The notes under the pieces were generated by a model, which worked only from the letters and a program-made list of their open reading frames with translations, made no database searches and was not told the origin of the DNA. 39,848 bases of DNA from Solirubrobacterales bacterium (GTDB taxonomy: Bacteria > Actinomycetota > Thermoleophilia > Solirubrobacterales > Solirubrobacteraceae). This document shows, piece by piece, positions 3,627 through 9,185 of the stretch (positions are counted from its first letter, which is position 1; every line of letters starts with the position of its first letter). The position numbers and the translations under genes were made by a program. The stretch covers positions 1 to 39,848 of the forward strand of contig JACDGG010000007.1 in assembly GCA_013815355.1 (NCBI GenBank), read 5' to 3'.

Positions 3627-3660
3627 TGACTATTGTCATAATAATATACTTGACTCACCT
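3627..3660 (+). repeat. Left terminal inverted repeat
   Basis: Inverted match to 6643-6676, 28/34 positions; inner core ATATACTTG(A/G)CTCACCT 16/17. Confidence 0.75.
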
Positions 3661-3684
3661 GCTCTGACGTAGTAAGCTCACCTT

Positions 3685-4604
3685 ATGAGCACTTCCGAGC
3701 AGCGCCCCACCAGCCTTCTTGAGGCGATCCGCTACTTCTCCGACCTCGACATCTGCACCGAGTTCGTTGCGAAGCTCCGCTGGCCCGAGGGGCCGGTCTG
3801 TCCGCGATGCGGCTGCATGGAATACAGCTACCTGAGCACTCGTCGCGTCTGGAAGTGCAAAGCCTGCAAGCGCCAGTACTCGGTCAAGGTCGGGACGATC
3901 TTCGAGGACTCGCCGCTCGGCCTCGACAAGTGGCTCCCCGCGGTGTGGCTGGCCGCGAACACCAAGAACGGGATCTCGTCCCATGAGCTTGGCCGGGCGC
4001 TCGGGATCACGCAGAAGTCGAGCTGGTTCATGCTCCACCGGATCAGGCTCGCCATGCAGACCAAGAGCTTCCTCAAGCTCTCCGGTGAGGTGGAGGCGGA
4101 CGAGACGTTCATCGGCGGGAAGGGCCGCAACAAGCTTCCGCACGAAAAGAAGCGCAAACCGCGCGGCGGACCGGGCGGCAAGACGCCCGTGTTCGGTCTC
4201 AAGGAACGCGACGGCCGCGTCCACGCCGAGGTCGTGCCGAATGTCAAAGGCGACACTCTCAAGCTCCGTGTAGCCCGCGCGGTCGAGCAAGGCTCCAACG
4301 TCTACACCGACCAGGCGCCCGTCTAGCGGGGCTCGGCTACGACCATGCGACCGTCAACCACCTTGAGCGCTACGTGGACGGGCGCGTCCACACGAACGGG
4401 CTAGAGAACTTCTGGTCGCTCCTCAAGCGAGGACTCCACGGAACCTACGTCAGCGTGGACGCCGACCACCTGTTCCGCTACGTCGATGAGCGCGTGTTTG
4501 CCTACAACCTCCGCGAGCGCACCGACTACGGCCGGTTTGAGACGTTGCTCGGAGCGGTCCAAGGCCGCAGGCTGACGTACGCCGAAGTAACCGGCTCTCG
4601 ATAG
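3685..4604 (+). pseudogene. IS1595-family (ISXO2-like DDE) transposase, frameshifted
   Basis: First part MSTSEQRPTSLLEAIRYFSDLDICTEFVAKLRWPEGPVCPRCGCMEYSYLSTRRVWKCKACKRQYSVKVGTIFEDSPLGLDKW...VEADETFIGGKGRNK...VYTDQAPV then TAG at 4324. It continues in another frame as GLGYDHATVNHLERYVDGRVHTNGLENFWSLLKRGLHGTYVSVDADHLFRYVDERVFAYNLRER. Zn-ribbon, DDE motifs and C-terminal ENFWSLLKRGLHGTY are typical of ISXO2/IS1595. Confidence 0.9.
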
Positions 4605-4885
4605 TCGAGGCTTCCGCCGGGTCCGCCTTTAGGATCTCATCGCTGGTCTAGTGAGCTGAGGGACGCCGCCTGCCGGCACAGCCCAAGAGCTTCTGCGGAG
4701 ACATCGCGCCACGATGCTCCGGCCGGGACTTCTACCCCTCTAGATCGGCGCCTCTGTCGAAGGGCTTCAAGGTAACCATGTTCACCCATCGGCCGGACAG
4801 AATCACTGCATTGTGCGACATCGATGCATCATCTTCTTGGATTTCGGCGCGAACCCTGCCTGTTGCGGTGCTCTGACGCCAATAT

Positions 4886-5119
4886 TCAGGCCGTGGCTTC
4901 GATGGCTTCGACGAGGTCTGCGAGCGAGATATCGAGCGCTTTGGCGATGCTGCGAACTGTGTCCCATCCCGGCGTCGATTGGACGAGTTCGATGCGCGCG
5001 AGCGAGCCGGTCGTGATCCCGGCATGGAAGGCCAGCGCTTCTCGCGTGACGCCTCGATCCTCGCGGAGACGACGGACCGCTGCCGCGAGCTGAGGGTCGG
5101 GTTTGGGCGAGCGCGCCAT
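4886..5119 (-). CDS. XRE-family helix-turn-helix regulator
   Basis: LAAAVRRLREDRGVTREALAFHAGITTGSLARIELVQSTPGWDTVRSIAKALDISLADLVEAIEA. Confidence 0.85.
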   Translation of the reverse strand: MARSPKPDPQLAAAVRRLREDRGVTREALAFHAGITTGSLARIELVQSTPGWDTVRSIAKALDISLADLVEAIEATA

Positions 5120-5174
5120 GCCGGAAACATCGCACGCCGCATGTGTCTAAGTCCATGCATTCCACCATATGCCA

Positions 5175-5205
5175 TTGACTGCCAGTCGTAGAGCGCTATA
5201 CGCTC
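5175..5205 (+). promoter_or_regulatory. Putative promoter/operator of the RHH-like gene
   Basis: TTGACT (5175-5180), 16 nt, TATACG (5197-5202), ATG at 5212. Palindromes GACTG-C-CAGTC (5177-5187) and GAGCG-CTATA-CGCTC (5191-5205) overlap both promoter elements. Confidence 0.5.
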
Positions 5206-5211
5206 CACGAT

Positions 5212-5400
5212 ATGCCGGGCTTTGCGCATGTGGTTCCGCTACGCCTCACACGTCAGGAGTGGCGCCAGATCAACGAGATGGCTCAACTGCGCGGCATCAC
5301 AGCCGAGGAACTACTCAGGGAGGCTCTACGGCTCACGCCGCCCGATCTCCAAACGCCGGTTAGCCCACGGCGTCATCTGCGCGTCGTGCAGTCCGGCTAG
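5212..5400 (+). CDS. Small ribbon-helix-helix-like protein
   Basis: MPGFAHVVPLRLTRQEWRQINEMAQLRGITAEELLREALRLTPPD: strand then two helices, CopG/RHH-like. Confidence 0.5.
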   Translation: MPGFAHVVPLRLTRQEWRQINEMAQLRGITAEELLREALRLTPPDLQTPVSPRRHLRVVQSG

Positions 5401-5615
5401 CTCTTGGCGTCGGGCTTCGGCGCATTGACGAGCTTCCGGGTCAAGTCCTCGAAGCGCTCGAACTCCGCCCCGTCGCCGGAGGGACGCTTGACGGCGACAT
5501 CCCGCCAGAAGTCCTTCGTCGTATAGCCCGGCGTGGGAGTGCTCGTTAGCTCGCTACGTGGGATCGAGATTGTGCTGGCGCGGCCACTACTTGCCTTTGC
5601 CTTTGAGGACTTCAT
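5397..5615 (-). CDS. Small hypothetical protein downstream of HicA-like gene
   Basis: 72 aa, ends FERFEDLTRKLVNAPKPDAKS; start overlaps the HicA-like ORF by 29 bp, indicating operon context. Confidence 0.5.
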   Translation of the reverse strand: MKSSKAKASSGRASTISIPRSELTSTPTPGYTTKDFWRDVAVKRPSGDGAEFERFEDLTRKLVNAPKPDAKS

Positions 5616-5826
5616 AGAAGTGCTCCTCCGTCTTTTGACATTGCCTGAGTAGTGCCTTGAAGAGGGTTTTGTCTCTTATCTGCGCGTTGCCGTGCGACAC
5701 GCTGGTGTGTGCCAGAACGCTGCCGTCGTCGTCGTGCTTGACCCAAGTCTCGTGCTTCTTGGAACGAACGAGCGTGAATCCATTCCGGCGGATGACCTTG
5801 CGGTACTCATTCCACCGAGGGGGCAT
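5587..5826 (-). CDS. HicA/YcfA-like toxin
   Basis: MPPRWNEYRKVIRRNGFTLVRSKKHETWVKHDDDGSVLAHTSVSHGNAQIRDKTLFKALLRQ: dsRBD-like HicA layout with the conserved His (KKHETW) and TLFKALLRQ helix. Confidence 0.75.
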   Translation of the reverse strand: MPPRWNEYRKVIRRNGFTLVRSKKHETWVKHDDDGSVLAHTSVSHGNAQIRDKTLFKALLRQCQKTEEHFYEVLKGKGK

Positions 5827-6214
5827 CCACGCTCACTGACGCGAACCAGAGCTCACGGGGCGTAGCGAGAAGTCCGACAAACCCCGAGTGATGGGAAATG
5901 GCCCGCGCGAGAGATGGGCGGTCATCTCGGACGTACTCCAAATACTGCTCGACCTCATCCTTCAGGCTGTCCATCGCCGCCTGCCAGGTGTCGCCGTGGC
6001 CGAGGGCATCAACCTCGGGCGCACGCGCGATCCAGCCCGTCTCACTGCGGGTCAGGACGGCGCTCAGGCGCGGGAAAACCGGGACCGGATAGGAGTGCGC
6101 GCCCTCTAGTGGCTCCGGCTTGGCATAGCGAAGCGTGATCGTCAGCGGACCGTCTGCCGCGACCTCGACGTTGTCGTGGTCACCGATGGGACCTATCAGG
6201 GTCGTCGCCGTCAT
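5807..6214 (-). CDS. HicB-like antitoxin
   Basis: FPRLSAVLTRSETGWIARAPEVDALGHGDTWQAAMDSLKDEVEQYLEYVRDD matches the HicB partial RNase-H-like fold pattern; overlaps HicA-like start by 20 bp. Confidence 0.7.
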   Translation of the reverse strand: MTATTLIGPIGDHDNVEVAADGPLTITLRYAKPEPLEGAHSYPVPVFPRLSAVLTRSETGWIARAPEVDALGHGDTWQAAMDSLKDEVEQYLEYVRDDRPSLARAISHHSGFVGLLATPRELWFASVSVDAPSVE

Positions 6215-6594
6215 GCCTGCTCCTCCGAATCTGGCGGCGTTTCGATGGACTGCTCAAGCTGTTGGGAAAGCTCCTCATGCATGGTCAGGTGGCTGCTGAG
6301 GGCTTGCATCAAGGGCATGATAAAGCTCGGCGAGAGCTTCAACCGAGCGACCACAATGGGCAGCGGCACACCGCCGCCCGGCACAAGCTGGATGAAGTCG
6401 AGTGTGACGTCGTGAGGCGCCTGGCTGGACACGGCGGCCTGGTTCGCATAGACGCCGACCTGAAGCTCCGGCGGCACAACAACGTCAACAGATTGTGGTG
6501 TCTCGTCATCGGCCATAGCAGGGATGCGGCGTCTACCTTCCAGTGATTGGCGGTCGCCCTGTCGCGCTTGAGCGGTGGGTTCTACGATGCCCAT
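6211..6594 (-). CDS. DUF3467 domain protein
   Basis: VVPPELQVGVYANQAAVSSQAPHDVTLDFIQLVPGGGVPLPIVVARLKLSPSFIMPLMQALSSHLTMHEE; ATGA overlap with the HicB-like gene. Start may be the internal Met of MADDETPQ. Confidence 0.7.
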   Translation of the reverse strand: MGIVEPTAQARQGDRQSLEGRRRIPAMADDETPQSVDVVVPPELQVGVYANQAAVSSQAPHDVTLDFIQLVPGGGVPLPIVVARLKLSPSFIMPLMQALSSHLTMHEELSQQLEQSIETPPDSEEQA

Positions 6595-6642
6595 GATACG
6601 GGCGGGACGCCGTCGTTGCGGCGGTTTGGCCGCTCTTTATTG

Positions 6643-6676
6643 AGGTGAGCCAAGTATATCAATACGACGATTGTCA
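6643..6676 (-). repeat. Right terminal inverted repeat
   Basis: Inverted match to 3627-3660, 28/34 positions. Confidence 0.75.
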
Positions 6677-7721: not shown

Positions 7722-9185
7722 CTAGTACCTGTAGTGGTCGGGCTTGTAGGGGCCCTCGACGGGCACGCCGATGTAGGCGGCCTGCTCCGCGGAGAGCTGC
7801 GTGAGCTTCACGCCGAGCGCGTCGAGGTGTAGGCGCGCGACCTTCTCGTCGAGATGCTTGGGCAGGACGTAGACGCGCTTTTCGTACTCGTCGTTCTTTG
7901 AGAACAGCTCGATCTGGGCGATCGTCTGGTTGCTGAAGGAGTTGCTCATCACGAAGCTCGGGTGGCCTGTGGCGTTGCCGAGGTTCAGCAGGCGTCCCTC
8001 GGAGAGCATGATGATCGCGTGGCCGTCGGGGAAGACCCACTTGTCGACCTGCGGCTTGATGTTGATGCGCTCGATGCCCGAGATGCGTCCGAGCCCGGCG
8101 ATGTCGATCTCGTTGTCGAAGTGCCCGATGTTGCCGACGACGGCCTGGTGCTTCATGCGCTCCATGTCCGACGCGGTGATGATGTCCTTGTTGCCTGTCG
8201 TCGTGATGAAGATGTCGCCGCTGTCGATCACGTCCTCGAGCGTGTTTACCTCATATCCCTGCATCGCGGCCTGCAGCGCGCAGATCGGGTCGATCTCGGT
8301 GATGATCACGCGCGCGCCCTGCCCGCGCAGCGATTCCGCACAGCCCTTGCCGACGTCGCCGAAGCCGCAGACGACAGCGACCTTGCCGCCGATCATCACG
8401 TCTGTCGCGCGGTTGATGCCGTCGATCAGCGAATGGCGGCAGCCGTAGAGGTTGTCGAACTTGGACTTCGTGACCGAGTCGTTGACGTTGATCGCCGGGA
8501 ACAGCAGCTCGCCGCTCTCGACCATCTCATAGAGGCGGTGCACGCCTGTGGTGGTCTCCTCGGTGACGCCTTTGATGCCCGCGCCGATGCGCGTCCAGCG
8601 CTTCGGGTCCTCGGCCAGCGAGCGCGTGAGTACGTTCAGGATCACCTCGTGCTCCTCAGATTCCCCACCCGCCGGGTCCGGCACCGCGCCGGCCTTCTCG
8701 TACTCGGTGCCCTTGTGCACGAGCAGCGTCGCATCGCCGCCGTCGTCGAGGATCATGTTTGGCCCACCCTCGGCGTCCGGCCAGCGCAGCACCTGCTCGG
8801 TGCACCACCAGTACTCCTCTAGCGTCTCACCCTTCCAGGCGAAGACCGGCACGCCGCGGGGGCTCTCGGGGGTCCCGTCGGGACCCACGGCCACTGCTGC
8901 GGCGGCATGGTCCTGCGTGGAGAAGATGTTGCAGCTGCACCAGCGCACCTCGGCGCCGAGCGCCCTCAGCGTCTCGATCAAGACGGCCGTCTGGATCGTC
9001 ATGTGCAGCGAGCCGGTGATGCGCGCACCGGCGAGCGGCTGCGCGTCGGCATACTCGCGGCGGATCGCCATCAGGCCGGGCATCTCGTGCTCGGCGAGCA
9101 CGATCTCCTTGCGGCCGAACTCGGCGAGAGAGAGGTCGGCGACCCTGAAGTCGTTGGCTACGGCGGTGGGTGTCATGGCGGACAT
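7722..9185 (-). CDS. ahcY: Adenosylhomocysteinase
   Basis: [45 protein letters not shown]...[20 protein letters not shown]...[14 protein letters not shown]...PYKPDHYRY. Confidence 0.98.

Follow-up and report, generated by a model that had tools for sequence, protein, structure and literature searches.

Between the convergent ctaG and nucleotidyltransferase genes of a Solirubrobacterales bacterium (contig JACDGG010000007.1), a transposase gene and a row of small genes lie within one inverted repeat. The question raised by this locus is whether the whole segment is a single IS1595-type transposon around passenger genes, as the original prediction from the DNA letters had it, and which part of such a system would be new. 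The window analysed was the 39,848-nucleotide stretch covering positions 1 to 39,848 of this contig.

Element ends and insertion site

The top inverted repeat found by repeat search of the region consists of two 34-nt arms at 3627-3660 and 6643-6676 (82%, 28/34). Allowing up to two mismatches, the core of the arms (TATACTTGRCTCACCT) was found in the 3.2-Mb genome to which the window belongs at two places only, the two arms, with no further copies of the ends elsewhere; the reversed control pattern of the core gave 0 matches in the same genome. As had been predicted, no copy of the end sequence follows directly after the transposase (end, 4604).

Convergent ctaG and nucleotidyltransferase genes without an insert, the empty sites that the original prediction had proposed as a check, were found in ten same-genus genomes, and the intergenic target was retained in two of these, L103 (CTATGACAACTGTCATAGTCTCACTTTCC) and L102 (CTATGCTGACAACTGTCATATGCCTCACTTTCC). 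The occupied site of the window reads CTATGCTG-ACTATTGT-[CATAATAATATAC ... GTATATCAATACG]-ACGATTGT-CATAGTCTCACTTTCC. By comparison with the two empty sites, 9 nt at the outside of each arm (TGACTATTG and TGACAATCG) are palindromic chromosomal target (TGACAACTGTCA in L103), and the element is flanked by an 8-bp target duplication, ACTATTGT and ACGATTGT (7/8 identical). A duplication of 8 bp is the value of the IS1595 family. The same comparison sets the bounds of the element at 3637-6666 (3,030 bp). Because the duplication is itself palindromic, it also resembles an inverted repeat; thus the predicted 34-bp ends are real as a repeat and at those positions, but a 34-bp terminal inverted repeat (TIR) was rejected in favor of a TIR proper of about 25 bp, the outer 9 bp being target. 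Neither of two findings that would speak against the prediction was encountered, namely relatives with the cargo at this locus and no TIRs, or complete IS copies ending near 4610-4700. Both tips of the window element depart from the GG consensus of the family, and together with a duplication of 7/8 instead of 8/8 this makes the window copy look old.

A near-palindrome (TATGACAACTGTCATA in L103) lies just ahead of a terminator-like hairpin in the ctaG/nucleotidyltransferase intergenic region. It is largely retained at the insertion site in L102 and L103, and is possibly an operator.

Table 1. Positions, strands and basis of assignment of the features of the window element
Feature	Position	Strand	Basis
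Left 8-bp target duplication, ACTATTGT	3629..3636	.	Empty sites L102, L103; 7/8 against right copy
Left TIR, CATAATAATATACTTGACTCACCT	3637..3660	+	Family consensus tip GG[C/T]AATAATATACTTGACT; here GG replaced by CA
IS1595-family transposase, zinc ribbon and DDE domain, two ORFs (3685-4326, 4374-4604)	3685..4604	+	IS1595 zinc ribbon PF12760, 2e-14; ISXO2-like DDE PF12762, 3.5e-18; NCBIfam NF033547, 6e-33
XRE/HTH_31 regulator (additional gene, between the transposase and small genes)	4886..5119	-	Pfam
Short ribbon-helix-helix (RHH)-like protein	5212..5400	+	RHH_1, E = 0.0017, below cut-off
Small companion protein, FERFEDLTRKLVNAPK motif	5397..5615	-	Family comparison, profile A2
HicA-like toxin gene	5587..5826	-	PF07927, E = 3.4e-4, 21.1 bits, below cut-off of 27; phrog_353 toxin, 1.5e-5; 1whz, E = 0.023; 68% relative in L165
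HicB-like antitoxin gene	5807..6214	-	Position and sequence look only
DUF3467 protein	6211..6594	-	PF11950, E = 4e-7
Right TIR	6643..6666	-	Repeat search, empty sites, TIRs of relatives
Right 8-bp target duplication, ACGATTGT	6667..6674	.	Empty-site comparison

Genes of the window element

The window element has the zinc ribbon and DDE domains, the TIRs and the 8-bp duplication (7/8) of the IS1595 family, and genes unrelated to transposition lie inside its TIRs, as in a 'transporter IS' (tIS). We are highly confident that 3637-6666 is a passenger-carrying transposon of the IS1595 family with the anatomy given in Table 1; the transposase domains, the empty sites and the distant right TIRs with 8-bp duplications of the relatives described below all uphold this part of the original prediction. 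Since the transposase ORF is split by a frameshift, which concerns its activity and not its membership in IS1595, the gene is probably a pseudogene and the window copy, judged by this reading frame, probably inactive or dead.

The HicA-like and HicB-like genes resemble a HicAB toxin-antitoxin pair in that a small HicA-like gene overlaps a HicB-like gene and has a histidine region, KKHETW, retained as RKHETW at a second locus, L165. They differ from HicAB in their weak scores, in a HicB-like protein that had no match in Pfam, NCBIfam or PHROG, and in sharing an operon with a DUF3467 gene. Of the 232 genomes of the order, only 2 had the HicB-like gene; in each it stands with HicA and DUF3467 in an IS1595 element, and the two elements belong to different subgroups. 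In the second case (genome G186, locus L165), the HicA, HicB-like and DUF3467 proteins are 68%, 45% and 69% identical, respectively, in the same gene order, and the three-gene set is convergent to another IS1595 transposase, 31% identical to that of the window. This element has 26-bp TIRs (24/26; 5675-5700 and 8775-8800) and, read by eye from the flanks, a perfect 8-bp duplication (CGGGGCAG, 8/8). Two IS1595 elements that are distantly related thus carry the set, and its recurrence in L165, together with the absence of the segment from the empty sites, marks it as genuine mobile cargo, as had been proposed for HicBA/DUF3467.

If these were instead resident chromosomal genes beside which an IS had inserted, the right repeat having arisen by chance, a DUF3467 gene would be no surprise, its relatives being common in the order (89/232 genomes). 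However, the entire segment is missing from the empty sites, the right end has a TIR and a target duplication, and the only other occurrence of the HicB-like gene in the order is in another IS1595 element, so a resident origin is extremely improbable and the genes are treated here as cargo. A resident chromosomal version of DUF3467 may exist beside the transposon-borne one. The L165 element (L165:5675-8800) also holds, by a look at its sequence, an HNH-like gene at 7972-8715.

Relatives and the small companion gene

Scanning genome contigs for the transposase brought 35 relatives, drawn from many phyla. In most of them the TIR has the form GG[C/T]AATAATATACTTGACTNACC and the right end lies far past the transposase. 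Among 41 TIR-bounded elements (1.6-5.0 kb), 38 have an 8-bp duplication matching at 7/8 or better, perfect in most, which establishes the anatomy of the family independently of the window. In the compiled elements the target duplications tend to begin with C and end with G (positions 1 and 8) and are mildly palindromic; a strong palindromic target preference was considered and dropped, the effect being modest (p ~0.006, letters shuffled within duplications).

All-against-all BLAST of the cargo brought out one small-protein family common to elements with otherwise unrelated cargo (62 distinct sequences, 45-60 aa), the member in the window element being a 72-aa ORF with the motif FxxFxxxxxKLLxVP[K/H]xE and without the basic C-terminal tail present in most relatives. 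One F is conserved in 62/62 and one V in 60/62 of the distinct sequences. The pN/pS of 0.23-0.66 in close pairs indicates purifying selection, and hence a selected protein. Searches against Pfam, NCBIfam and PHROG yielded no match for the small protein, the sole exception being a sub-threshold one to DUF7416 in one member.

The profile of the family (A2) was searched in six frames with no transposase required. The window protein matches it at E = 4e-9, its own sequence being among the 11 rows of the profile. The first scan covered genomes of the class of the window (matches in 6/399), the second 15 genomes of known elements, and the third genomes of the class to which the genome of L029 belongs (matches in 59/299). 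In the first two scans, this transposase was present within the fetched flanks at 17 of 18 loci examined; the eighteenth (L078) has a TIR, and its longer sequence (L093) showed the transposase and a TIR pair. In the third scan, the transposase is present at 27 of 29 loci and a TIR at the remaining two; these 29 are the stronger matches of that scan. The counts are therefore not exhaustive, nor fully independent, since a few loci are profile members found again (e.g., L051 = L016, L068 = L026). In these scans the small gene was found almost only inside such elements. IS1595 relatives of other subgroups (L006-L015, L040-L050) gave no small-protein match, with flanks that are short for some, and the small gene is therefore not generally needed for transposition. 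On this distribution, the small ORF can be taken as the mark of a whole transposon lineage. In L021, L042 and L043 the small motif had seemed, by eye, to be fused C-terminally to the cargo; this was rejected after the refined profile gave E = 5 for L021 and no match for the others.

The AlphaFold model predicts a helical hairpin (helices 19-31 and 35-59; mean pLDDT, 83; pTM, 0.43). Structure search of the model against the PDB gave no fold match, which is unsurprising for only two helices, and sequence search with the small-protein profile found no solved structure.

Gene order and cargo exchange

The small gene lies directly downstream of a cargo gene, often overlapping it. Among 61 cases, the small and transposase genes converge in 49 and are codirectional in 12; 25 of the 49 show a stop-codon overlap of exactly 4 nt. 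In some cases 0.1-1 kb separates the two genes; the window is among these, with the XRE and RHH genes in between, and here it is the RHH stop that overlaps the small-gene stop by 4 nt (CTAG, 5397-5400). The exact overlap would suit an arrangement in which the peptide is of little weight and the convergent layout runs cargo transcription antisense into the transposase gene, damping transposition. We regard this as quite improbable, as the protein is under purifying selection with nearly invariant F and V residues, and as there are codirectional and widely spaced cases, the window among the latter.

The closest pairs of elements resemble each other at the nucleotide level from the left TIR across the transposase and small genes, up to the cargo start; in more distant pairs the similarity ends earlier. 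It ends at or before the start of the small gene in 29 of the 30 closest pairs, and L123/L133 alone continues through the cargo. L124 and L125 have a core 81% identical and cargo of different families, and the same-genus L081 shares with the window 81% of transposase nucleotides and 93% over 44 nt of the small gene, and has aspartic-protease-like cargo (L081:3542-4066, in an element that is decayed). The plan of the lineage, as read from these alignments, is a left unit of left TIR, transposase gene and opposing small gene, followed by an exchangeable cargo, transcribed toward the small gene, and then by the right TIR.

Cargo of the relatives

Scanning of 53 cargo proteins, those of the window included, showed DUF3800 in 12, by far the commonest recognizable cargo; its setting hints at a toxin or at a part in defence. 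Further domains were RelA/SpoT, PIN, SIR2, RhuM, KilA-N, HicA, DUF6932 and N6-methylase, as well as trypsin-like and aspartic-protease-like domains. The cargo also matched PADLOC models of candidate or known defence proteins (PDC-S33, S05, S22, S23, type IIG and type I enzymes), and many of the 53 proteins had no match in the domain and PADLOC scans. Two further clusters we take, from a look at their sequences, to be putatively 'HEPN-like'. By these matches, recognizable cargo is mostly toxin- or defence-like. The cargo region of one IS1595 element holds a second, unrelated transposase gene (L029:8672-9766, sequence look).

Such cargo, which includes restriction-modification enzymes, the place of the small gene straight downstream of it, and the lack of any cargo-free element with the small gene among the 41 would fit a small protein that acts on the cargo as a general antidote, chaperone or translational brake, retained since every cargo endangers the host. 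This reading is doubtful: unrelated cargo folds share one small family, which makes neutralization by binding with one antitoxin unlikely, inheritance of the small gene tracks the transposase and not the cargo, and the HicA of the window already has a HicB-like partner. A putative accessory or regulator of the element itself, specific to the lineage and with its gene last in the cargo operon, is the preferred role, though a tentative one; the predicted hairpin protein might, for example, bind the transposase or the ends.

Proposed history and relation to known systems

The window element inserted into the palindromic site between the two convergent genes, duplicating 8 bp and carrying the HicA/HicB-like/DUF3467 operon with the XRE and RHH genes, and later probably lost transposase function by frameshift. 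By analogy with the family, the transposase would mobilize the whole TIR-bounded unit, inserting it with an 8-bp stagger; the similarity breakpoints suggest that cargo is replaced by recombination between the small-gene start and the right TIR. We give about an even chance to the full proposal that this many-phyla IS1595 lineage is a shuttle of defence and toxin genes, with a fixed left TIR, transposase and helical-hairpin protein and an exchangeable cargo operon by the right TIR, the task of the small protein being control over transposition or over the expression or exchange of cargo.

The name tIS has been given to members of the IS1595 family that hold passenger genes (Siguier et al. 2009, through passages of PMC8496243 and PMC3129680 that cite it). 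The present elements share with tIS the IS1595 transposase, TIRs around transposase and passenger genes, and the 8-bp duplication; unlike tIS as the same passages characterize them, by passenger genes in general, they have a companion gene, a 4-nt convergent stop overlap and wholesale cargo exchange. Larger mobilizable IS1595-type units with passenger genes, tISCpe8 and MTnSag1, are named in a passage of PMC5704250, in which an IS1595-type transposase likewise moves the larger unit; tISCpe8 has, by a title cited there, lincomycin resistance, whereas the window element holds toxin-antitoxin-like genes. The titles, abstracts and passages of the open papers searched, a scope outside which Siguier et al. 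2009 and ISfinder lie, held no description of the companion gene, the 4-nt stop overlap or the cargo exchange. The 'undescribed mobile system' of the original prediction is accordingly narrowed: cargo-bearing tIS are already described, the exchangeable-cargo design with a companion gene appears to be new, and the most novel part is the small ORF as lineage marker.

Single-gene defence and toxin candidates are scattered in bacterial genomes without a clear vehicle, and a common, compact transposon lineage with a fixed core and swapped cargo would be one. The TIRs together with the small gene offer a simple search key for uncharacterized defence or toxin genes, and the role of the small protein, which forms a conserved family so far unnamed, is directly testable.
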